Part shown: in pieces, positions 11,054-21,485 of the stretch | How positions within the stretch are numbered: position 1 is the stretch's first letter | How the letters are laid out: each line of letters begins with the position of its first letter | NCBI GenBank assembly: GCA_025934835.1 | Contig: JAICWL010000011.1 | Coordinates: 1 to 52,781 of the forward strand | DNA: 52,781 nucleotides | From: Fimbriimonadaceae bacterium | Lineage (GTDB): Bacteria; Armatimonadota; Fimbriimonadia; Fimbriimonadales; Fimbriimonadaceae | Direction: 5' to 3' | Made by a program: the position numbers and the translations under genes | The notes under the pieces: generated by a model | Database searches by the model: none | Told to the model about the DNA's origin: nothing | The model's input: the letters and a program-made list of their open reading frames with translations, nothing else

Positions 11054-11485
11054 ATGGCTATGGACGACCTTCGAACGTTTTTCGATCGCTGGCGCCCCTG
11101 GGTGCTTAGCGTGTTGCGAATCATTTTGGGGTTCCTTTTCTTCGAGCACGGAGGACAGAAGCTGCTCGGGTTCCCGACGGCGATGCCCGGCCCGCCGCTT
11201 CAGATTGGCTCGATGCTTTGGGTCGCCGGCTGGCTCGAGCTGGTCGGAGGGCTGCTCATCCTCATAGGACTGTTCACGCGTCCCGTGGCTTTGATCCTTT
11301 GCGGAGAAATGGCTGTGGCGTACTTCCACCAGCACGTTAAAAACGGCTTCTGGCCCCTCGCAAACAAGGGAGAGCCCGCAGTGTTCTACTGCTTCCTGTT
11401 CCTCTACTTCCTGTTCGCCGGAGCGGGGCCGCTCAGCTTGGATGCGCTTTTCAAGCGCCCTGCCGCGGCGACTACCAGCGGATGA
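11054..11485 (+). CDS. DoxX-family membrane protein
   Basis: 143 residues from the ATG at 11054 (an ATG two codons later is possible). Four hydrophobic segments and the DoxX hallmarks are visible: RIILGFLFFEHGGQKLLGF in the first helix, GWLELVGGLLILIGLFTRPVA in the second, then MAVAYFHQHVKNGFWP. DoxX/DoxD-like proteins are membrane subunits linked to quinone redox reactions or redox stress. The 3' end overlaps the end of the convergent fabH gene by 14 bases. Confidence 0.88.
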   Translation: MAMDDLRTFFDRWRPWVLSVLRIILGFLFFEHGGQKLLGFPTAMPGPPLQIGSMLWVAGWLELVGGLLILIGLFTRPVALILCGEMAVAYFHQHVKNGFWPLANKGEPAVFYCFLFLYFLFAGAGPLSLDALFKRPAAATTSG

Positions 11486-12458
11486 GGTTCGCGCCCCATA
11501 CGAGCCCAGCGCCGAAGCCGACGGTCATCACCACCGAACCTTTGGTGAGCAAACCCTGCTCGTTCGCTTCGTAGAGCCCCAGCGGGATGGAGCCTCCGCT
11601 CGTGTTTCCGTATTTGGCCACGTTCACGAATACTCGATGGTCGGGAAGGCCCAGCCGCTTCGCCGCGGATTCGATGATGCGGAGATTGGCTTGATGCGGG
11701 ACGAAGAGGTCTACATCGTCCGGTGTCATGCCCGCCTTCTCGAGCACTTTGCAGCAGGCGTCCCCCATCGCCTGCACGGCGAACCGATACACCTCGGCGC
11801 CGGCCATGTAAACCTTGTCACGCCTCCCTTCAGCTTGAGGTGATCCGACCGGATACTTGGTCCCACCCACTTCGTAAGTGATGTACTTGCCTCCGCTCCC
11901 GTCGGCCATGAGCACGGTTTCAATCACGCCGCGGTCCGTGTCGGTCTCGCCCCGAACGACCACAGCGGCGGCCCCGTCCCCGAAAAGCACGCAGGTCGAG
12001 CGATCAGTCCAGTCCACCTGTTTGCTCAGAGCGTCCGCACCCACGACGAGAACGTTTTGCGCATGGCCGGATTCGATCATCGCCGCTGCGGTGCCAAGCG
12101 AGTAAATGAAACCGGCGCAGGCAGCGCTGACGTCGTAGGCCCCTGCGTTATTTGCGCCAAGCTCGGTTTGGAGCATGCATGCGGTCGACGGCCAGATATA
12201 GTCTCCCGTAACCGTGCCACAGACGATGAGGTCTAGCTCGGACGCTGGAATGCCCGATCTTTCTAGCGCCTCGCGGCTAGCCTCCAGAGCAAGGCTGCCA
12301 GTCCCTTCATCTCCCTGACAGATATGCCGCTCTTTGATGCCCGTGCGCTGAACGATCCATTCGTCGCTGGTGTCAACCATGCGCTCCAAGTCATCGTTGG
12401 TGAGGACCTTGCTCGGTACCGCATGCCCGACCGACTGGATGACCGCCCGCTTATTCAT
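11472..12458 (-). CDS. fabH: 3-oxoacyl-ACP synthase III (KAS III)
   Basis: 328 residues, full length for FabH. It condenses acetyl-CoA (or another acyl-CoA) with malonyl-ACP to start fatty acid synthesis. The catalytic triad is complete: Cys114 in SAACAGF, His255 in VPHQAN and Asn285 in YGNTSGG. The Gly-rich C-terminal block GFGAGLVWG is present. The ATG at 12458 overlaps the plsX stop by 4 bases, so it is the third gene of a coupled yceD-plsX-fabH operon. Confidence 0.97.
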   Translation of the reverse strand: MNKRAVIQSVGHAVPSKVLTNDDLERMVDTSDEWIVQRTGIKERHICQGDEGTGSLALEASREALERSGIPASELDLIVCGTVTGDYIWPSTACMLQTELGANNAGAYDVSAACAGFIYSLGTAAAMIESGHAQNVLVVGADALSKQVDWTDRSTCVLFGDGAAAVVVRGETDTDRGVIETVLMADGSGGKYITYEVGGTKYPVGSPQAEGRRDKVYMAGAEVYRFAVQAMGDACCKVLEKAGMTPDDVDLFVPHQANLRIIESAAKRLGLPDHRVFVNVAKYGNTSGGSIPLGLYEANEQGLLTKGSVVMTVGFGAGLVWGANLIRW

Positions 12459-13453
12459 AATCCTGTTTCCGCGCCTTCGCCGAGGATCGCCTCGCGAATG
12501 GTGTCCACCACACAGCTCTCAATTCCCCTCTGGGCGAGCAAAAGTGCATTCTTGATCGCCTTTGCGTTGCTGCGGCCGTGCGAGATGATGCACAGCCCGT
12601 TGAGGCCCAAAAGGGGTGAACCTCCGGTTTCAGCATAGTCCATCTGCTTGCGCAGCGGCGCCATCACCTTCTTAACGGGCCAGTACAGCCATTTCGCCGG
12701 CGCGTACCTCGGCACACCCTCGCGAATCGAGCTGACGATCAACTCCGCGAGCCCCTCGCTGGATTTGAGCACGACGTTCCCTACGAACGCTTCGCACACC
12801 ACTACGTCGCACGGCTTGGTGTACATATCCTTGCCCTCGATGTTTCCCGCGAACCAGTCGTGCGGCGCCAGGAGGCGGTAGGTTGCCTTTGCGAACGCGC
12901 TACCCTTACCCTCTTCCTCTCCGATGTTCAGCAGGTGCACCTTCGGATCGCGTCTGCCCATGACCCTCTCCGCATAGGCTCTTCCCATGACCGCGAAATC
13001 CACCAGGTGCTTCGGGTCGACATCGGGGCTGGCGCCCGTGTCCAAGAGCAGAAACCCTCCCTTTGGGTTCGGAAGCACGCTCGCGATGGCCGGCCGATGG
13101 ATGCCTGGCACTTGGCGCCAGGTGAGCAAGGCGGTTGCGGATACGGCGCCCGTATTGCCGGCAGAAACGAGCGCCCTCGCGCGGCCCTCCTTGACCAGCC
13201 TCGCGCACACCATCAAGCTAGAGTCCTTTTTCCGGCGATACGAATCAAGCGGCTTTTCATCCATGCCGACGGATTGAGAGGCGTGAATGACCTCGATGTT
13301 CGGTGGTCTGGAAGCAGGAAGAAGCCGCTCGATTTGGGAGCTGTCACCCACGAGAAATATCGTCGAATGGATTGCCGGAGCAGCCTCCAAAGCGCCGTCG
13401 ATCACCGCCTTTGGCGCAAAGTCGCCCCCCATGGCGTCGACCGCTATGCTCAA
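12455..13453 (-). CDS. plsX: Phosphate acyltransferase PlsX
   Basis: 332 residues beginning SIAVDAMGGDFAPK, the invariant PlsX N-terminus. It converts acyl-ACP and phosphate to acyl-phosphate for PlsY, the first step of phosphatidic acid synthesis. Other conserved blocks are SAGNTGA, LDTGASPDVDPKHL, NIGEEEGKG and CEAFVGNVVLKS. Both ends overlap neighbours by 4 bases (yceD upstream, fabH downstream), so translation of the three genes is probably coupled. Confidence 0.97.
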   Translation of the reverse strand: MSIAVDAMGGDFAPKAVIDGALEAAPAIHSTIFLVGDSSQIERLLPASRPPNIEVIHASQSVGMDEKPLDSYRRKKDSSLMVCARLVKEGRARALVSAGNTGAVSATALLTWRQVPGIHRPAIASVLPNPKGGFLLLDTGASPDVDPKHLVDFAVMGRAYAERVMGRRDPKVHLLNIGEEEGKGSAFAKATYRLLAPHDWFAGNIEGKDMYTKPCDVVVCEAFVGNVVLKSSEGLAELIVSSIREGVPRYAPAKWLYWPVKKVMAPLRKQMDYAETGGSPLLGLNGLCIISHGRSNAKAIKNALLLAQRGIESCVVDTIREAILGEGAETGL

Positions 13454-13989
13454 CGTCCGTGGCCCTCGGGAGAACGAAATCGGGCGAGATCGCCGAGCAG
13501 CGCCTCGTGATTACGGCCGTCTGGCGCGCTCGCTCCGCGGGCCTCTGCGATCGGGCAGGGCTCGTCCCATCCATGGCTGCAAAGCGGCTGGACCGGCATA
13601 GCTAGCAAGAGGCCCTGCCTCAGGAGCTGCTCGACGATTAGCGAGTTTCCCTCGAACAGCGGAAATGGCTCCTCGGCGACGATTCGCGCGTAATCTTGCG
13701 AATTGAGCGAGCTCGGCACTCCCTCGACGGGAAACTGCTCTTCGATCTCGAATTCGACGTCAGTCTCCAATGGCGAGGAACAGCGCGCGCATTCTTGCAC
13801 GGCCCGCGCGTGAAACTTGCCGGAAATGAGAAGCAGGTTGCCTGTGCTGCTCGCCTCGAGGTACCCCTCGAGCGGGCCCACGAGATCGAGATCCTCCTCT
13901 TCCGGAAGCTCGGTGCTGATGTCCACCGCAAGCTCGCGGCCCGGGTGCTGAAGCACGTCGTTCAGGTCGAGCAGATCTTCCCTTCGCAT
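13450..13989 (-). CDS. yceD: YceD/DUF177-family protein
   Basis: 179 residues from the ATG at 13989. It has the DUF177 pattern: an N-terminal half with GPLEGYLEASSTGNLLLISGKF, the cysteine pair CARCSSPL, and an acidic middle. A second cysteine pair (CSHGWDEPC) near residue 150 could join the first in binding a metal. In many bacteria yceD is followed by rpmF (ribosomal protein L32); here its stop overlaps plsX directly and rpmF is absent. YceD is linked to 23S rRNA maturation in E. coli and plants. No Shine-Dalgarno is seen; a TACAAT hexamer at 14003-14008 on this strand lies 13 bases before the ATG. Confidence 0.82.
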   Translation of the reverse strand: MRREDLLDLNDVLQHPGRELAVDISTELPEEEDLDLVGPLEGYLEASSTGNLLLISGKFHARAVQECARCSSPLETDVEFEIEEQFPVEGVPSSLNSQDYARIVAEEPFPLFEGNSLIVEQLLRQGLLLAMPVQPLCSHGWDEPCPIAEARGASAPDGRNHEALLGDLARFRSPEGHGR

Positions 13990-14044
13990 GGAATTAGGGC
14001 GGATTGTACCTGTGTCAAGTTGCACTGCGGGCCCAACGTGGCGC

Positions 14045-14050
14045 TATGCT
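14045..14050 (+). promoter_or_regulatory. -10-like hexamer TATGCT, leaderless register
   Basis: TATGCT ends 6 bases before the ATG at 14057. A TTGCAC at 14020-14025 could be the -35 with a long 19-base spacer. Confidence 0.45.
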
Positions 14051-14056
14051 GGGCGC

Positions 14057-14749
14057 ATGAGCACTTGCAAGATAGTTTGCTTCCTATTCGCGATTTTGGC
14101 CGGCGCCTCCATCGCAGGGGCGCAGAGCATTCACGTCAAGCCGACTGCAAGGCCGGACGCCGTCGCCAAGAACAAAATCTTAATTACGATGACGGTCTCG
14201 GGCCAAGAGGTCACGACGTCCGCGAAAGTCGAGACCACCGTCAAAGCGGGCCCCGATGGCACCCTCAAGTACGTGGACGAATACAAGGAATTCTCCATCG
14301 AAGTGGGTGGCGGCGCTGGCCCCGAAGTGGCCCTTTCGCCGCTCGAGGCTCAGGTGGATACCGCGGGAGAGCTTAAGCGAGCCTCCGGCGGACCGGAAGG
14401 CGCCGACCCAGCCGGACTGTTTCTTATGACGCACTTCGTTGCGCCGGACAAGGATCTAGCTCCCGGGGACAGCTATTCGCTCGACTTTCGCGCCAATGCT
14501 GCGGCAGCAATTCCGGAGCTCAAATACGAGGGAACATACATAGGGCCGGACAAGGTTGACGGCGTAGACGCCCAGAAATTCACGCTCAAGTGCACTCAGA
14601 TGAAGTCGGACGGGCTGAAAACGGACATGACTTTCTGGGTCTTGGAAAGCGGGCAGGTGCTCAAATGCTCTGGCAAATTCCAAGGGTTCTGGCTGCCGAT
14701 CGTGTCACAGTCTGCGGATGGCACCGTCGAGGAAACCGTGTCGAAGTGA
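14057..14749 (+). CDS. Exported protein of unknown function
   Basis: 230 residues from the ATG at 14057. Residues 1-23 form a signal peptide (hydrophobic core FLFAILAGASIAGA). The mature protein is beta-rich with repeated TxKVETTVKA-like and EYKEFSIEVGGG-like strands, contains LAPGDSYSLDF in the middle, and KFTLKCTQMK with WVLESGQVLKCSGKF near the end; the two cysteines may pair. The second half resembles exported proteins whose strands report 'formula-style' lipid or glycan binding, but I cannot assign a family. It is divergent from yceD, and separated by 183 bases from the proteasome operon downstream. Confidence 0.75.
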   Translation: MSTCKIVCFLFAILAGASIAGAQSIHVKPTARPDAVAKNKILITMTVSGQEVTTSAKVETTVKAGPDGTLKYVDEYKEFSIEVGGGAGPEVALSPLEAQVDTAGELKRASGGPEGADPAGLFLMTHFVAPDKDLAPGDSYSLDFRANAAAAIPELKYEGTYIGPDKVDGVDAQKFTLKCTQMKSDGLKTDMTFWVLESGQVLKCSGKFQGFWLPIVSQSADGTVEETVSK

Positions 14750-14873
14750 GTACGAAGTGTGCGGTACATCATCTGCCCAAATCCTCCAGACACGTTCATT
14801 TTATATTTACGCGTGTAAGCTAGCGACCTTTTTCGATTCGCTCGCACGTCAACACAAGGCTGGGCAAACTTGC

Positions 14874-14879
14874 TATACT
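14874..14879 (+). promoter_or_regulatory. Candidate -10 (TATACT) of the lipoprotein-dop-UBact-prcB operon
   Basis: TATACT lies 53 bases before the TTG start at 14933 in the 183-base gap after the exported protein. TCAACA at 14849-14854 is a possible -35 at a 19-base spacer. It is the only good -10 found by eye upstream of the four-gene block. Confidence 0.4.
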
Positions 14880-14932
14880 GTTCGCCAGCTAGACGAAGCG
14901 ACGCGCCGAGTGGCGCACGAGGTGATCGCAAT

Positions 14933-16279
14933 TTGAGGAATTGGGCATTCTTTCTTGTCGCCTTGGCAGCCGTCACGATCGGATGCGCAGGGCATGGCAG
15001 CTCCGCAACCAACTCGATCGGTACGACCAGCGGTGCCACGGGCACTACTGGCACTCGAGTGACGATTCCGGACAACTCCGGTGGACCGGTCGACCCAAGC
15101 TATAAAGGTGCGGGCGCAGTCGACGTCAACTTCCTCACTGGTCAGGGCCGCGACCTCGGCGAGCTTCTTGCGATTGTCAACCACGTCGTGCTTCAGGACG
15201 ACTTGGGCCCGGAAGATACGAAACTTCAGGCTGAAGTCACTCTGCGTCTAAAGGGCTTCCAGAGCCAGATAGTGCACTTGGACGTCCGCCCAGGAGGACG
15301 AGACAGCCGGCTGTTCCAGAATTACCCGCTCGAGGTCCTGCGTTTCGAGCAGGATAACGGCGGCGGTTTCTCGACGCTGCCGGCGGCGACCACCGATCTC
15401 AGTCCGGACGAGCGCGGCTTCCCGGCAACATTCCCGGCCCGCATTCGGGTGTTCCCCGGCCGCGACACGAGTTTGCCGGTGTTCTTCGACGACTCGATGG
15501 TCACGATCGAGCAAGACGGGCAGGTGTATCTGAACGCGCCGCAGTTCGAGGCGATCAACATGCCTGCGAACAACCCGCAGCTCTTGGCGTTCATCAGCGA
15601 CTACGTGATGTTCGACATTTCGGGCATGGCGGATGGCGACAAGCCGATTCTATCGAGCGGTGACCCTGCCGGGCGCATCTATTTCTCGGGCGACAACATC
15701 GCGATTTCTCAAGGCGGACAGTTCAGCAATCCGCCCGGACCGGACCGAGGAATCTTCGAAGCGCTGACGCTCGACGTCAACAATCCGATTTCTGGCTTCT
15801 ACGGTCCGCAGCAGAACCTCGGCACAGGCTCGAGCCCTGGAACCTATTCGTTGGTTACACCCGACCCAACCGACCTGACGGGCACCGCTCGCATCACCTC
15901 GCTTCAGGGAATTTGGCGGCCGTTCTCGCAGGTCGTCAGCGATTCCACCGGGTTCGTGTTCCTGACCATGCCGACGAGCGACGATAATGGCGATCAGGAC
16001 GTCGTGCTCGTTCAACATTCCGGCGACAAAGTCACGAACATGTACTTCGGGTTCGCCGACCTGGAAGCCGGAACGTTCCGTGTCTACCCGATCAAGGACG
16101 TTGTCTCCGGTATCACCGCGGGCGAGCTGACTGGAACCGTATCCAGCTACGTCACCGCTTCCGGAACGCCGACCGCCGTGCCGCACCAGGTGCGAATCGG
16201 GGCCTTCACGTTCGATCCCGGTTCTTCACTGCCTTCCGGATTCCCTAACACTGGAGCCTTCCTAGTCTTCAGAAGGTAG
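14933..16279 (+). CDS. Exported (probable lipo-) protein abutting dop
   Basis: 448 residues. The start is a TTG at 14933 placed by GAGGTGATC 5 bases upstream, a near-perfect match to the 16S 3' end. The signal sequence (RNWAFFLVALAAVTIGCAG) has a Cys at a plausible lipidation site, although the -3 residue (Thr) is unusual. A Ser/Thr/Gly-rich linker follows (TTSGATGTTGTRVT), then about 400 residues of beta-rich sequence with no catalytic motif I know. The final codons carry the dop Shine-Dalgarno (AGAAGG), and its TAG is directly followed by the dop ATG. Co-transcription with dop is therefore likely; any functional link to proteasomal degradation is inference. Confidence 0.75.
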   Translation: MRNWAFFLVALAAVTIGCAGHGSSATNSIGTTSGATGTTGTRVTIPDNSGGPVDPSYKGAGAVDVNFLTGQGRDLGELLAIVNHVVLQDDLGPEDTKLQAEVTLRLKGFQSQIVHLDVRPGGRDSRLFQNYPLEVLRFEQDNGGGFSTLPAATTDLSPDERGFPATFPARIRVFPGRDTSLPVFFDDSMVTIEQDGQVYLNAPQFEAINMPANNPQLLAFISDYVMFDISGMADGDKPILSSGDPAGRIYFSGDNIAISQGGQFSNPPGPDRGIFEALTLDVNNPISGFYGPQQNLGTGSSPGTYSLVTPDPTDLTGTARITSLQGIWRPFSQVVSDSTGFVFLTMPTSDDNGDQDVVLVQHSGDKVTNMYFGFADLEAGTFRVYPIKDVVSGITAGELTGTVSSYVTASGTPTAVPHQVRIGAFTFDPGSSLPSGFPNTGAFLVFRR

Positions 16280-17755
16280 ATGCGTCCGATCCTCGCGGGT
16301 ATCGAAACGGAGTACGGACTCATCGTCGATAACCGCGGGGCGGAGGACCAAGTCGACGATGCGACGGCCCTCGTTGCCGCTTATCCGGGCCCATGCCACG
16401 TCGGCTGGGACTACCGGTACGAATCACCGCGCGCCGATCTGCGCGGTTTCACTCTTAAGAAGCTGTCGTACGACCCCGTCGACGCCAAGTTCGATTTCGG
16501 CCGCGCTCGCCATCGAGACGAAAACGTGCGGGCAGACAGAATCTTGCCGAATGGGGCGAGGCTATACAACGATCACGGCCATCCGGAGTATTCGACTCCC
16601 GAATGCAAGCGCCTGACCGAATTAGCGAACCATGACGCATCTGGGCAGACCGTGGTGCTCCGCTGCGGGCAGGAGCGCGAGAAGCAGATCGGCGCGCGAA
16701 TCCGCCTTTACAAGAACAATACGGACTTTCATGGCGCGTCATATGGCACGCACGAGAACTACCTGATGCCGCGAGAGATCGGGTTCGAGCGGCTGTATCG
16801 GGACCTCATGCCGATGCTGGTTGTGCGCCAGGTGCTCGTCGGGGCGGGAAAGGTAGGCGCCGAGTCGGAACCTCAGGTCGCATACCAGCTTTCGCAGCGC
16901 GCGGACTTCTTCGTCGAAACCGCAAACGCAGAAACGCTTTACAGGCGGCCGATCTTTAACACGCGCGATGAGCCGCACGCCAATCCGGAGGATTGGATCA
17001 GACTGCACGTGATCTGCGGCGATGCGAACATGATCCCCTCGGCCACCGCGCGCAAGGTCGGTCTGGTCAAGCTCGCGCTGCACCTGTGCGAAAACGGCAC
17101 TGCGCCCAAGTGGAGCTTCCGCAATCCCGTGGAGGCGTTTCGAGCGATCAGCCGCGACGATTCCTTTGAGTTCCGAATCCAGCTCGAAGGCTCGAGTTGG
17201 ACGAATGCCTACGAAGTCTTCGAGTCGTATTTCGCCGCCGCCGAGCGCACTCTGGAGCTCGACGAGGATATGGCTTGGGTCATATCGAGCAGCCGCAGAC
17301 TTCTCGCGAATCTAAGAGACTGCCGCGAGAACGTGGTCAGGGAGATCGATTGGGCGGCCAAACGCTCCATGCTCGAGCAATTCATGGACTCCGAGCAGGT
17401 CGACTGGAACGACCCCGCGCTGCGGGCCTACGATCTGGAATATCACAACGTGGATCCAAGCGAAGGACTCTACGCGGCACTGGTCGAGATGGACCAAGTA
17501 GACGCCGGCCCGACGGCCGAGGAGACCGAGCGATATCTGAGCCGAGGTGCGGAAGGCGCCCGTTCGTTCGCCCGAGGGCTGGCCGTGGCCAAGTTCGGAG
17601 ACAAACTGACGAGCGCATGTTGGCGTACGATGACGTTTCGGGCCGAAAATGAACAAGTAGAAGTGGAGATGCCGCCCGATGCGAATTATCCGCAAGCACT
17701 TGAAGAGGCGGAAAGCGTAGAAAGCTTCATACAAATGTTAAGAGGTGTTTCCTAA
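16280..17755 (+). CDS. dop: Dop-like deamidase/depupylase of a UBact-proteasome system
   Basis: 491 residues, the usual size for Dop/PafA carboxylate-amine ligase-fold enzymes. Glu9 and Glu11 (GIETEYG) are the metal ligands. Asp98 in ARLYNDHGHPEYSTPEC matches the catalytic Asp. WDYRYESPRADLRGF, LYKNNTDFHGASYGTHENYL and QLSQRADFF match Dop more closely than PafA, and the segment between strands 1 and 2 is long, as in the Dop loop. Known function: Dop deamidates the C-terminal Gln of the modifier and removes the modifier from substrates. The next gene's product ends in Gln, so deamidase action is needed here. AGAAGG precedes the ATG. PafA identity cannot be fully excluded without an alignment. 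Confidence 0.92.
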   Translation: MRPILAGIETEYGLIVDNRGAEDQVDDATALVAAYPGPCHVGWDYRYESPRADLRGFTLKKLSYDPVDAKFDFGRARHRDENVRADRILPNGARLYNDHGHPEYSTPECKRLTELANHDASGQTVVLRCGQEREKQIGARIRLYKNNTDFHGASYGTHENYLMPREIGFERLYRDLMPMLVVRQVLVGAGKVGAESEPQVAYQLSQRADFFVETANAETLYRRPIFNTRDEPHANPEDWIRLHVICGDANMIPSATARKVGLVKLALHLCENGTAPKWSFRNPVEAFRAISRDDSFEFRIQLEGSSWTNAYEVFESYFAAAERTLELDEDMAWVISSSRRLLANLRDCRENVVREIDWAAKRSMLEQFMDSEQVDWNDPALRAYDLEYHNVDPSEGLYAALVEMDQVDAGPTAEETERYLSRGAEGARSFARGLAVAKFGDKLTSACWRTMTFRAENEQVEVEMPPDANYPQALEEAESVESFIQMLRGVS

Positions 17756-17935
17756 ATGGATGGAGATCGGCTGACGCGCCCTTTGGCGCCCGAGCCTGGC
17801 AAGAAGCTTGGCGACGACCAGGGACCGAGCAGGCCCCAAATCAACAAGCCCGGCGGCGACAACGAGCTCTTGAAGCGGATGAAGAAGATCGACCCGGACC
17901 AAGCGAAGCGGTATCGCCAGCGATCCGGTCAATGA
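17756..17935 (+). CDS. ubact: UBact-type ubiquitin-like (Pup-like) protein modifier, 59 residues
   Basis: A 59-residue ORF exactly fills the gap between dop and prcB: its ATG follows the dop TAA with no spacer, and its TGA overlaps the prcB ATG (ATGA). AGAGGTG at 17741-17747 is well placed as a ribosome site. The protein is hydrophilic and disordered-looking, with Asp/Gly/Pro/Lys/Arg, no cysteine or aromatic residue except Tyr53. The C-terminal third (NELLKRMKKIDPDQAKRYR then QRSGQ) matches UBact/Pup: a short amphipathic helix and a penultimate Gly before Gln. UBact is the Pup homologue described in Nitrospirota, Armatimonadota, Verrucomicrobiota and others. It would be attached through its C-terminus to lysines and target proteins to the proteasome. 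Most gene finders would miss it. Confidence 0.9.
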   Translation: MDGDRLTRPLAPEPGKKLGDDQGPSRPQINKPGGDNELLKRMKKIDPDQAKRYRQRSGQ

Positions 17936-18708
17936 GCGGTCTCGCGCCATGGCCCCGGGCCCGTGCCAGCTTCGAGGAAGTCGTTGGCTCGCGCCGAGAA
18001 TTGTTCGTACCCGCCGAAGGTTCGCAGGCGGGGTTCGAGACTCATGGCACTACCGTGCTTTCGCTACGGTTCGATAACGGCGTCCTGACATTAGCCGACC
18101 GTAGGGCCACGGCCGGCAGCCTGATCATGTATGACCAGGCGGACAAGATCATCGCGCTCGACGATCATACGGTCGTCGCGATCTCGGGGGCATTCGCACG
18201 TTCTGTGGAGGTCTGCCGGATGCTCAAACACTCGTTCAAGTATTACCGGCGCGCGGTGCTGAACGAGCTCTCGCTCGAGGGCAAGCTGACCGAGATTTCC
18301 CGAGCACTGGCCGGCAATGCGCCGATGGCCATGCAGGGCATCGGCCTATTCCTGCCGATCGTGGCAGCCTACGATCCGCAAACCGAAGAATTCGGCGTCT
18401 ACTTCTTCGACGGCGCCGGAGCGCGATTCCAGAACGGCTCTTACGCCTGTGCGGGCTCGGGCTCCGAGCGAATTCGGGGGGTCTTCGAGTACGTCTCACG
18501 CGAAAAGGGCCATTTCGAAACGCGCCCACTCGAAGACGTGCTGCTGGAAGGGCTTAAGATGCTGGATATCGCCGCCGATCTCGATTCGGCTACCGGTGGG
18601 TTCAACAAAACCCTGCCCGTGACCCGAATCCTCGATAAGTCCGGAAACCGCGAAGTGCCCGAGCAGGAGCTTCGGCACCTCACGGCCCAAGTGCTGTCGC
18701 CGGCCTGA
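17932..18708 (+). CDS. prcB: 20S proteasome beta subunit
   Basis: 258 residues. Residues 1-39 are a propeptide ending HG, then Thr40 (mature Thr1) in HG|TTVL. Asp56 (Asp17, in LADRRAT) and Lys72 (Lys33, in YDQADK) complete the active site at exactly the expected spacing. The SGS block (GSGSERIRG) and DSATGG follow family pattern. Mature length (~219) matches actinobacterial PrcB. The ATG overlaps the modifier's stop, so translation is coupled. No prcA follows: the next gene is a sugar-binding lipoprotein. Either an alpha subunit is encoded elsewhere or the enzyme is unusual; the former is the default expectation. Confidence 0.95.
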   Translation: MSGLAPWPRARASFEEVVGSRRELFVPAEGSQAGFETHGTTVLSLRFDNGVLTLADRRATAGSLIMYDQADKIIALDDHTVVAISGAFARSVEVCRMLKHSFKYYRRAVLNELSLEGKLTEISRALAGNAPMAMQGIGLFLPIVAAYDPQTEEFGVYFFDGAGARFQNGSYACAGSGSERIRGVFEYVSREKGHFETRPLEDVLLEGLKMLDIAADLDSATGGFNKTLPVTRILDKSGNREVPEQELRHLTAQVLSPA

Positions 18709-18748
18709 GGCAGACCCAGGCGCGAGGGTGATAGAATTGCGCCTGACT

Positions 18749-19798
18749 ATGCGTGCGCTTCGATCGTTGGCCCTTCTCGCTATTGTCGGCGTTGTGGCAG
18801 CCGGCTGCCACAAGGCTTCCGAGGGTCCCGCGGCCTCCGGGAGTCAAGCCAAGTCGCTGCGGGTCGTCTATATCCCGAAGAACACCGGCAATCCCTACTT
18901 CGACGAGGTCGTGCGCGGGTTCAAGGACGCCTGCACCGAGATGCACGCCGACTTCTTTACCACCGGTCCGACAACGGCCGACGCGACCTCACAGATTCCG
19001 ATCATCAACGAGCAGGTGCAGCGAGGGGTGGATGTGATCGCGATTTCACCGAATAGCCCCGACGCGCTGAACCAGGTCCTGGACGACGCCCGCAAAAAAG
19101 GAATCGCGGTCATCACGGTGGACGCGGACCTCGTCGGCAATGAAACGCACCGGGATGCCGCCGTACTTCCGACCGACTTCAGCAAGGTCGGTCCCAGCCA
19201 ACTCGACCTGCTTGGGAAGCTGGTCGGATTCAAGGGCGATTTCGCGATTCTCAGCGCGACAACCGACGCGCCGAACCAGAACGTCTGGATCGCCGGCATG
19301 AAGGCTGCGCTGAGCGGCCCCAAATACTCGCAGATGAAGCTCGTCGACATCGTTTACGGCGACGATGAGCCCCAGAAGAGCACTAACGAAGCCGAGGCAC
19401 TGCTCGCGAAATATCCGAACCTAAGCGGGATCATCTCGCCTACCAGCGTGGGCCTGGCGGCTGCCGCGCAGACCCTGAAGCTCGCAGGAAACTATCCTGG
19501 TGGTCCACACGCCAAAGGCGCAGGCATTCAGCTCACCGGCCTGAGCACGCCAAACCAGCTTGCACCGTTCGTGAAGGACGGAGTGGTCACTGCGTTCCAG
19601 CTTTGGGCCCCCTACAACGAGGGGTATTTGGCAGCGTACATTGGGGCGAAGATCAAGGACGGCAGCCTCAAGCCGGCCGCAGGCGCCAGCTTCGACACGC
19701 CGAAGCTCGGCAAGCGAGAGTTCTCGCCGAAGCTGGAAGTAACCGGCGGTCCGCTCGTCACTTTCGACAAATCGAACGTAAACCAGTACAACTTCTAG
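18749..19798 (+). CDS. Sugar ABC transporter substrate-binding lipoprotein (RhaS/LsrB type)
   Basis: 349 residues from the ATG at 18749, where a signal peptide begins and a lipobox-like VAAGC places the lipidated Cys near residue 20. The rest is a periplasmic-binding protein type 1 fold: VYIPKNTGNPYFDEVVRGF, then VQRGVDVIAISPNSPDAL, then DDARKKGIAVITVDAD, the standard phrases of the rhamnose/AI-2-like branch. No permease or ATPase gene is adjacent, so it is an orphan binding protein. TAGAAT at 18732-18737, 11 bases before the ATG, may be its own promoter, so it need not belong to the proteasome operon. Confidence 0.88.
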   Translation: MRALRSLALLAIVGVVAAGCHKASEGPAASGSQAKSLRVVYIPKNTGNPYFDEVVRGFKDACTEMHADFFTTGPTTADATSQIPIINEQVQRGVDVIAISPNSPDALNQVLDDARKKGIAVITVDADLVGNETHRDAAVLPTDFSKVGPSQLDLLGKLVGFKGDFAILSATTDAPNQNVWIAGMKAALSGPKYSQMKLVDIVYGDDEPQKSTNEAEALLAKYPNLSGIISPTSVGLAAAAQTLKLAGNYPGGPHAKGAGIQLTGLSTPNQLAPFVKDGVVTAFQLWAPYNEGYLAAYIGAKIKDGSLKPAAGASFDTPKLGKREFSPKLEVTGGPLVTFDKSNVNQYNF

Positions 19799-19870
19799 GC
19801 GGAAATATGCCGCTTCGGAAGCCAAAACCAGGCAGACTCGGCCTAAACTATAAGGTCCGGAGATGCTTGG

Positions 19871-20419
19871 ATGAGGCAGGCGGCCACCCAAACGATTAGC
19901 TACGCGCAGCGCGAACAGACGCTCTACGAACTGCTCAGCGTGGCGCCTGGCGCCGGCCGCGACCAGATACGGGCTGCCTTCCGCCGAGAAATCCGCCGCT
20001 GGCATCCGGACCTGAACGCGCACCGCAGGGATGAGGCGCTGGAGCACACCAGGGTGTTGATCGCGGCCTACAGGGTTTTGCGAGATGCGGAGACGCGTAA
20101 GCGGTACAACATCCAGATCGGGATCCTGCCGCCGATCGCATCCCGCGTGGGCGTACGCGGAGCCTCTCTGGACGTAGACCGTCCACGGCCGCTTTGGAGT
20201 CCGGATATCTCCGATTCGGCCATGTTTGTAGTCATCTCCTTGATCTGCGGAGCCATCGTGGGCGCGACTTGGCTGTACGAGCTGAATAGCCGGACTTCGG
20301 CCGAGTCATATGGAGCGGCGGACGGGGGAATTCGGCACATGATGAGCCCTTACGATCCCGCTCGCGGCAGCGGCGAGCTGATACCGGATCCCGGATTTGG
20401 AGGCGGATTCGGCTTGTGA
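19871..20419 (+). CDS. Membrane-anchored J-domain protein
   Basis: 182 residues. Residues 15-80 form a J domain: YELLSVAPGAGRDQIRAAFR, the HPD triad in RRWHPDLNAH, and YRVLRDAETRKRYN. The HPD motif stimulates DnaK-type ATPases. No zinc-finger or C-terminal DnaJ domain is present. A single transmembrane segment near residue 118-138 (MFVVISLICGAIVGATWLYEL) anchors it, with a Gly/Pro-rich C-terminus. It is a class III J-protein that would recruit Hsp70 to the membrane. The start is the ATG at 19871; an ATG at 19864 runs into a stop. Confidence 0.85.
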   Translation: MRQAATQTISYAQREQTLYELLSVAPGAGRDQIRAAFRREIRRWHPDLNAHRRDEALEHTRVLIAAYRVLRDAETRKRYNIQIGILPPIASRVGVRGASLDVDRPRPLWSPDISDSAMFVVISLICGAIVGATWLYELNSRTSAESYGAADGGIRHMMSPYDPARGSGELIPDPGFGGGFGL

Positions 20420-20480
20420 GCGAGCGAAAAGTGCAAGATCGACGCTTAGCGCTGCTGAACTTCTCGTAGGAACGTGCGTA

Positions 20481-21485
20481 ATGACGGGCATGAAGGTCGC
20501 TCGACCACTATTTTTCGCCGCCGGCTTGCTCCTGCTTTCCACATCGAGCTTCGCGCAGCTGACATCTCAGGATAAGCGCGACGTCCTCGGTGGGATCGAG
20601 CATGTGCTCACGACCGAGGCCTTTGTGCCGGGGATCGACCTCGGGAAGTGGAAGACCTTCATGGCGGCCCGGCAGCAGGACATAGACGCCTCCGATACGT
20701 CGCGTCAATTCTTGGCTGTAATCAACGGCGCGCTCCACGAATTCGGGGTCAGCCATATCATGGTCATGCGGCAGCGTCATCGGTCCCAATGGGGCGGTGG
20801 AGACGAGCTGCTTCAACAAGGACACCAAGAACCGAGCTTCGAAGAGGACGGCGTGCGCTGGCTGGACGACCAGGACGCCTACATGCGGCTCGGTGGGTTT
20901 GGACGGAACTACGATCCAGCGGAGGTCGAAGATTGGTTTCAGTCGATCGCCGGAGCGAAATCGCTCGTGCTCGATTTGCGTTCGAACCCTGGCGGCGAAG
21001 TCGACAAGATGAGGCATTTCCTCGGCTTGGTGATCCCTCCCGAAACACCGGTCGGCACGTTCGTCTCCAAGAGCATCGCAAGCGCGTACGTGAGCGCCGG
21101 CAAAGGAGACGGGCGGGACTCGGTCGCGATCGCCAAATGGACGTCGCACAAGATGAAGGCGCCCAAAGACTCGACGGCGCCGTTCAAAGGACGGATCGCA
21201 GTGCTTGTCGATCAAGATTCGGCCAGCGCCGCGGAGGTAGTGGCGAACGCGCTACGCGAGCTGAGGCATGCCCCGGTGATCGGGACGCGCACAGCGGGCG
21301 CCGTGCTCTTCTCGACGTTCGAGGGGTTGCCCCACGGGTTTAGGATTCAGTTCCCGGTCGGCGACTACGTGTCGGTCGGGGGCACACGCCTCGAAGGCCA
21401 CCCGATCGTTCCGGACGTACCGGAAGGATCAGGTGGCAACTCCGAGATCCAAGCCGCCCTGAACGCTCTGAAGGCGTCTCGCTAA
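20481..21485 (+). CDS. Exported S41-family peptidase (IRBP/tricorn-like)
   Basis: 334 residues from the ATG at 20481; the signal peptide ends SSFAQ. The S41 core is clear: LVLDLRSNPGGEVDKM, then LVDQDSASAAEVVANAL with the nucleophile Ser, then IGTRTAG. The carboxy-terminal-processing type catalytic Lys is absent after the TAG block (AGAVLFS instead of FGKG), while an early SHI motif (FGVSHIMVM) offers the His used by IRBP/tricorn-type members. There is no PDZ domain between them, so the enzyme is compact. Substrate unknown. It converges on the gene at 21482 with a 4-base overlap. Confidence 0.82.
   Translation: MTGMKVARPLFFAAGLLLLSTSSFAQLTSQDKRDVLGGIEHVLTTEAFVPGIDLGKWKTFMAARQQDIDASDTSRQFLAVINGALHEFGVSHIMVMRQRHRSQWGGGDELLQQGHQEPSFEEDGVRWLDDQDAYMRLGGFGRNYDPAEVEDWFQSIAGAKSLVLDLRSNPGGEVDKMRHFLGLVIPPETPVGTFVSKSIASAYVSAGKGDGRDSVAIAKWTSHKMKAPKDSTAPFKGRIAVLVDQDSASAAEVVANALRELRHAPVIGTRTAGAVLFSTFEGLPHGFRIQFPVGDYVSVGGTRLEGHPIVPDVPEGSGGNSEIQAALNALKASR

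Follow-up and report, generated by a model that had tools for sequence, protein, structure and literature searches.

Does a short run of genes in a Fimbriimonadaceae genome encode a proteasomal tagging system, and are the remaining parts of that system present in the same genome? The question was raised by the first-pass annotation of the window (the whole stretch of DNA that was analysed, 52,781 nucleotides). It had placed dop, a 59-residue Pup/UBact-like modifier and prcB at 16280-18708 without gaps, and had read them as a ubiquitin-like degradation system outside the actinobacteria.

The core in the window and its partners in the genome

The coordinates proved exact (Table 1): the dop stop codon abuts the UBact ATG, and ubact and prcB overlap by four bases. 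The dop ATG is itself abutted by the stop codon of another gene, X, which makes the gene run one longer on the upstream side. Chance is excluded for the three genes originally described by the E-values of their Pfam matches to Pup_ligase (Dop; 459.9 bits, E=1.3e-137), UBact (76 bits, cut-off 27.8; E=1.9e-21) and Proteasome (PrcB; 78 bits, E=9.7e-22). A simple scan of positions 13900-20500 found no sigma-70-like promoter.

Table 1. Genes of the run and the gene preceding it, in window positions
Gene (product)	Positions	Strand	Remarks
Y (predicted exported protein, 230 aa)	14057..14749	+	upstream of X
X (predicted lipoprotein, 448 aa)	14933..16279	+	heads the X-dop-ubact-prcB run; putative TTG start; Cys18 at 14984-14986
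dop (deamidase/depupylase, Pup_ligase family, 491 aa)	16280..17755	+	Asp98 at 16571-16573
ubact (59-residue ubiquitin-like modifier)	17756..17935	+	C-terminal YRQRSGQ; Gln59 at 17930-17932
prcB (proteasome beta subunit, 258 aa)	17932..18708	+	predicted propeptide 1-39; Thr40 at 18049-18051

The modifier was assigned to UBact by two curated models, both above cut-off: PF20513, with the score given above, and NF033388 (ubiq_like_UBact; 80.6 bits, cut-off 35). Its C-terminal tail is kept, as had been noted from the letters alone, and reads KRYRQRSGQ. Unlike actinobacterial Pup, it thus ends in Gly-Gln with no Gly-Gly before the last residue (S-G-Q), and it matched no Pup model of Pfam or NCBIfam. 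Pup was ruled out on these grounds; judged by the models, the modifier is UBact. The tail YRQR[ST]G[EQ] recurs in nearly all aligned rows, and the last residue, counted separately over the 20 distinct rows of the modifier's own family, is Q in 14 and E in 6. UBact was present in 100 of the 201 genomes of a phylum draw.

The window enzyme carries the E-T-E-Y-G motif and Asp98, the latter aligned with the nucleophile region of solved Dop. It scored 377.9 bits with the NCBIfam Dop model TIGR03688 (equivalog cut-off 492.3) and 280.4 bits with the PafA model, both below cut-off; by sequence it is a better fit to the Dop model, yet lies beyond what this equivalog covers. Its nearest solved chain was Dop, with which it aligned from residue 6, and with solved PafA it aligned only from residues 86-87 (Dop-loop region). 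The motif after the aspartate is NDHGHPEYSTPE in the window enzyme versus IDAVGSHLEYATAE in a second Pup_ligase protein, encoded on contig C99 of the same genome; differences between Dop and PafA in this motif are given in a passage of PMC7947786. In a midpoint-rooted tree of 62 rows, the window enzyme fell on a side with 28 Dop and no PafA rows and the C99 protein on a side with 33 PafA and no Dop rows. Since the rows had been labelled by profile score, the tree is a consistency check. PafA is ruled out as the identity of the window enzyme by model scores, tree and motif; assignment to Dop is supported by the tree, the motif and the Dop-loop region. Its closest named relatives, among the best 80 of 223 in a scan of named genomes, belong to MAGs titled Armatimonadetes, Fimbriimonas and Fimbriimonadaceae.

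PrcB has its catalytic residues Thr40, Asp56 and Lys72, which correspond in the mature subunit to Thr1, Asp17 and Lys33. The alignment puts residue 40 opposite residue 1 of mature PrcB chains of solved structure, the nearest solved chain is a bacterial PrcB, and the score with TIGR03690 was 123.3 bits (below the cut-off of 191.9). The catalytic residues that the first-pass annotation had claimed for Dop and the beta subunit are therefore present. Its broader claim of a ubiquitin-like degradation system outside the actinobacteria is supported by the UBact models, by the tree, motif and loop region of Dop and by the catalytic residues of PrcB.

The annotation had also pointed to the rest of the genome (190 contigs, 94.9% complete) for PafA, Mpa/ARC and PrcA. 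Homologues of all three were found, on three other contigs. The one further Pup_ligase gene, on C99, encodes a protein with close scores for PafA (301.4 bits, below the equivalog cut-off) and Dop (280.2 bits). Among solved chains Dop matched it best (233 bits) and PafA next (195 bits), so its name as PafA rests on model scores, motif and tree. Two further proteasome-family genes lie on C29 and C99. The C29 protein is probably PrcA, its best model being TIGR03691 (61.8 bits, E=6.3e-17; cut-off 139.05) and its best solved matches PrcA chains (E=2.4e-8), with the pocket Lys48 in register. The PF00227 gene on C99 had been a candidate for the missing alpha subunit, which was located on C29 instead; it is HslV (249.7 bits, cut-off 137). 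The one strong ARC/Mpa match, on C76, scored 446.9 bits with the proteasome ATPase model, below the equivalog cut-off, and had Mpa as its nearest solved chain. For Dop, PafA, PrcB, PrcA and ARC alike, the right model scored best, yet all five remained below the NCBIfam equivalog cut-offs.

The run X-dop-ubact-prcB, together with the pafA, prcA and arc homologues on the three other contigs, would very probably form a UBact tagging and proteasome system with all its parts. Homology with the Pup system suggests how the steps would run. Using Asp98, Dop would deamidate Gln59 of UBact to Glu, and PafA would join this Glu to lysines of target proteins, from which Dop may be able to remove UBact again. 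The tag would be captured at the N-terminal part of the ARC ring, after which the target would be unfolded by the ATPase. For docking on the PrcA ring, whose pocket lysine is retained, ARC would use the two hydrophobic residues at its very end in place of a penultimate tyrosine. PrcB would cut its own propeptide at Gly39/Thr40 and then degrade the target.

UBact-proteasome systems were reportedly described by Lehmann et al. 2017 (doi 10.1016/j.bbrc.2017.01.037), a work cited in PMC5751360 and PMC12751074. The present system shares with them the UBact family, the homologues of Dop, PafA, PrcA, PrcB and ARC, and the position of dop before and prcB after ubact; the dop-ubact-prcB core by itself is a further member of this already described family. 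With the actinobacterial Pup-proteasome system (Mpa/ARC, Dop, Pup, PrcB, PrcA, PafA) it has in common the enzyme set, the deamidase/ligase pair and the order dop-modifier-prcB.

More unusual features, absent from the first-pass annotation, are the broken-up operon, gene X and the ATPase tail.

Gene X at the head of the run

The best 80 of the 223 Dop relatives from the scan of named genomes served as named loci for a comparison of neighbourhoods. They comprised 28 loci with X, five Fimbriimonadales-like loci without it (L187, L191, L193, L201 and L207) and 47 others, sorted by gene content, identity and title, the titles being MAG labels that are not always consistent. Among these best 80 of 223, X was found in 28 of the 31 Fimbriimonadales-like loci with sequence upstream of dop and in none of the 47 others. 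X is missing from L191, L193 and L207 despite sequence upstream of dop; L187 and L201 start inside dop and are uninformative. In the phylum draw of 201 genomes, all 32 UBact-bearing Fimbriimonadaceae genomes contained full-length X, on the dop strand and 1.5 to 3.7 kb upstream of UBact. No full-length match was found outside Fimbriimonadaceae in this draw, an absence only as good as the first look, since at most the eight best first-look candidates were scored per genome. Weak matches in 28 genomes outside the family (below 30 bits, within the first 128 model positions) were left uncounted.

The TTG start of X is putative because it was picked by comparison with relatives. Downstream of it, a hydrophobic segment is followed by a lipobox-like stretch, recognised by eye, whose Gly-Cys is invariant in the alignment of 28 rows, and X is therefore a predicted lipoprotein. 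It had no Pfam match, no NCBIfam match above cut-off and no solved relative. The predicted structure (pLDDT 82.4) consists mostly of strands, and no convincing solved relative of it was found. Searches of a 5.8-billion-protein set, with the 7996 most-word-sharing candidates scored, returned 14 and 17 relatives, which are hypothetical proteins where named and contain no Pfam domain. Two genomes, G085 and G092, have a second copy elsewhere (~172 bits). On this evidence X is a predicted lipoprotein family of its own, and a new one.

X-dop-ubact-prcB is likely an operon headed by X. Whether X contributes to UBact tagging is another matter, and we see an even chance that it is a mere neighbour of dop, kept with it in a conserved stretch of chromosome and without a role in tagging. 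General synteny has to be taken seriously as an alternative to a functional link because a divergent cluster near X on the opposite strand, fabH-plsX-yceD, is also conserved in 8 of the 10 loci compared. Furthermore, the other products of the run are expected in the cytoplasm, unlike a lipoprotein, which X is predicted to be. A mere neighbour is less easily reconciled with the constant position of X just upstream of dop, on the same strand, in each of the 32 genomes mentioned above, or with the distance of its stop codon from the codons of the Dop GxETEYG motif, which is 8-46 bases in 28 of the 30 loci measured (133 and 149 bases in the other two). Nor did the 10 loci compared have any gene downstream of prcB in common. 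In the Fimbriimonadaceae genomes G181 and G185 (1.5 Mb), the searches for UBact, Pup_ligase, the proteasome family and X were all negative. This joint absence speaks for a link as well, but these are only two small genomes, and general genome reduction can explain the loss.

X offers a concrete and removable candidate for a connection between UBact tagging and the cell envelope. Close to it among known systems are the Pup-like systems of Plesiocystis and Rhodopirellula, in which, as a passage of PMC2588565 describes, a Pup-ligase-family gene also stands beside the gene of an envelope protein. In those systems, however, the same passage gives the ligase itself transmembrane segments and leaves the proteasome genes unlinked; in the window, prcB sits in the run, and the predicted lipoprotein X is a protein distinct from the Pup-ligase-family enzyme.

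Y is a possible further member of the neighbourhood. In 6 of the 80 named loci (best 80 of 223), a relative of Y lies either ahead of X or immediately before dop. Weak DUF6263 matches, below cut-off, were seen in such relatives but not in Y itself.

The ATPase tail and proposed docking on the proteasome

We collected 131 ARC frames with scores above 400 and a stop codon inside the available DNA, leaving out frames cut by contig ends, and obtained 100 distinct tails. Groups follow the record titles, except that L224 (titled Acetothermia) was counted with Armatimonadota; the rows L130 and L158 come from fragmented genomes without a UBact match. None of the 100 distinct tails had a tyrosine in its last four residues. 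The last-but-one residue was V in 50, I in 49 and M in one, and the last residue I in 71, V in 18, M and L in four each, and N, H and T once each. The linker before this hydrophobic pair is variable. ARC of the window genome ends in ARKNVM, unlike the actinobacterial GQYL, with which both intact control tails terminated (2/2); a third actinobacterial ARC (L341), a short frame flanked by transposase, was excluded as a control. On the side of the alpha ring, the pocket lysine of PrcA was present in 112 of 112 distinct rows, in the register of the solved-chain alignment.

For mycobacteria, a penultimate tyrosine is named as the main docking determinant in a passage of PMC8755798, and GQYL is required to open the proteasome according to a passage of PMC12288473. 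Coupling of ARC to PrcAB is accordingly not secured here, since mycobacterial Mpa depends for this opening on a tail that ARC does not have. With tyrosine missing from the last four residues of all 100 tails, and with the components of the system unlinked in Fimbriimonadaceae, it is conceivable that ARC stays undocked, that UBact tagging is regulatory and weakly coupled or not coupled to the proteasome, and that PrcAB works with another partner. We consider this improbable. The tail is far from random, with V or I at the penultimate position in 99 of 100 and I, V, M or L at the end in 97 of 100 behind a linker that varies, and the lysine that would receive it is retained throughout. Moreover, the same tail occurs in loci in which arc still lies in one run with prcB and prcA. 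A hydrophobic pair that stays fixed while the linker before it varies resembles a docking motif of a different type, and docking through it is the reading that we prefer. The tyrosine-free tail is a directly testable case against the penultimate-tyrosine docking rule for proteasomal ATPases.

A reading that joins the tail with gene X goes further, and we advance it tentatively, as possible but rather doubtful. UBact proteasomes might be docked in a way undescribed for bacterial proteasomes, the ATPase ring entering the alpha-ring pockets by a tyrosine-free [V/I][I/V]-COOH tail (Armatimonadota, Poribacteria, Nitrospirota). In Fimbriimonadaceae, in addition, the tagging half might have been rewired so as to belong to an envelope operon with the new lipoprotein family at its head, with tagging and proteolysis answering to the state of the cell envelope.

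Scattered genes in Fimbriimonadaceae

Outside the Fimbriimonadales-like group, 34 of the 47 loci (best 80 of 223) have arc-dop-ubact-prcB-prcA-pafA in a single run and in this order. The titles of these records include Armatimonadetes, Chthonomonas, Poribacteria and Nitrospira. The Fimbriimonadaceae locus differs from this usual UBact locus in that it is without arc, prcA and pafA and has the predicted lipoprotein gene X in the place of arc. All 28 X-bearing loci of the best 80 contain dop, ubact and prcB and none contains arc, prcA or pafA.

The same separation was observed in a draw of 61 Fimbriimonadaceae genomes, of which 56 have UBact, 59 a Pup_ligase gene, 55 PrcA and 56 a strong ARC match. 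In all 56 UBact-bearing genomes a Pup_ligase gene lies within 3 kb of UBact on the same strand, and 50 of the 56 have a second full-length Pup_ligase gene elsewhere. This pafA shares a contig with the core in 7 of 50 genomes, at least 263 kb away. For prcA the corresponding figures are 10 of 53, with a smallest distance of 19 kb, and for arc 17 of 53, with a smallest distance of 13 kb; prcA and arc share a contig in 13 of 51 (smallest distance 7.4 kb). The dop-ubact-prcB linkage is thus kept in Fimbriimonadaceae, with pafA, prcA and arc apart.

That assembly breaks merely simulate the split of an intact operon is scarcely credible, although the window genome is fragmented and most relatives have the modules on different contigs (core and pafA in 43/50, core and prcA in 43/53, core and arc in 36/53), because seven Fimbriimonadaceae genomes have all four modules on one contig, with the core 263 kb to 1.85 Mb from pafA, 334 kb to 1.05 Mb from prcA and 77 to 903 kb from arc (along the contig, circularity ignored), and because neither prcA nor pafA follows prcB in any of the 28 X-bearing loci (best 80 of 223), 24 of which have at least 4.1 kb of sequence 3' of prcB.

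The eight PafA rows from Fimbriimonadaceae form one clade (support 1.0), joined by those of two Fimbriimonadales relatives (0.927 and 0.983); on this ground re-acquisition of PafA from elsewhere was rejected. Because the dispersed PafA groups with its sister-family counterpart, rearrangement of an inherited operon is the best reading of the scattering from these sequences. In G191, of the same order and another family, dop-ubact-prcB-prcA-pafA is intact and arc lies on another contig, which suggests that arc was the first gene to leave the operon.

In the actinobacterial Pup system, by contrast with the scattering here, gene order is rigidly conserved according to a passage of a 2012 review (PMC3511204). 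A passage of PMC2588565 (2008) states that homologues of Pup and PafA neighbour each other in every lineage. Among the matches listed in a search of an open-access library of papers, which does not cover the founding UBact paper, titles and abstract starts mentioned neither scattered genes nor X nor the ATPase tail. New are the gene scattering across Fimbriimonadaceae, the predicted lipoprotein family heading the run and the ATPase without a tyrosine tail across UBact systems. The scattering is a natural test of which linkages are obligatory: dop, ubact and prcB stay together, and ligase and ATPase need not.

Some loosening of the operon is seen outside Fimbriimonadaceae too. Of the 13 loci among the 47 without the full order, nine reach a contig end (L210, L211, L212, L215, L217, L223, L228, L230 and L245) and L249 has a tandem duplication. 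In L202, L225 and L227, pafA was not seen despite at least 3 kb of sequence 3' of prcA, and in some genomes outside the family, such as G027, G041 and G045, dop and pafA lie on different contigs.

Gene Y and the surroundings of X and dop

In two relatives, L191 and L193, dop is directly abutted by Y, which encodes a predicted exported protein and in the window lies upstream of the predicted lipoprotein gene X. The arrangement in L191 and L193 gives the impression that X was inserted between these two genes. Members of the X family also occur apart from dop, as an extra, distant copy in two genomes, G085 (171 bits) and G092 (173 bits). The minus-strand cluster of fabH, plsX and yceD beside the X-dop-ubact-prcB run is kept in 8 of the 10 loci compared.

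Coordinates of the features discussed
Feature	Location	Strand
fabH, plsX, yceD	window 11472-14025	minus
Y	window 14057-14749	
Second X-family copy	G085:C1:388293-389390	
Second X-family copy	G092:C1:1256676-1257773	
pafA, small gene, Y, dop	L193 3158-7383	
Tandem ubact-prcB-prcA sets	L249 7515-13215	
Paired UBact matches, genus g31	G013:C4:768105-768378	
Paired UBact matches, genus g31	G079:C30:12142-12415	
GGDEF (diguanylate cyclase) gene	L285 1-822	
HslV gene	G000:C99:54094-54606	

Tagging enzymes and modifier genes

In L193, from the Fimbriimonadales MAG TGS_ARM1, pafA is followed in series by one small gene, then Y, then dop. The UBact tail pattern had no match in 13.4 kb of this locus: the enzyme genes stand side by side with the modifier not nearby within that stretch. 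Nine phylum-draw genomes, several of them fragmented, gave a Pup_ligase match but no UBact match (G005, G006, G030, G053, G086, G132, G139, G158 and G163).

Two phylum-draw genomes of one genus (g31) each hold an adjoining pair of UBact matches, and the Nitrospira locus L249 contains two ubact-prcB-prcA sets in tandem, the first followed by short pafA-like pieces and the second by a full pafA.

Neighbours of arc and pafA

A GGDEF gene directly precedes arc in L285, and its relatives lie before arc in 4 of the 7 family loci compared; L301, L304, L306 and L307 are the other loci concerned. On contig C99 of the window's genome, accD immediately adjoins pafA. An HslV gene lies ~5 kb from pafA on the same contig, and this genome therefore has both HslV and a proteasome.
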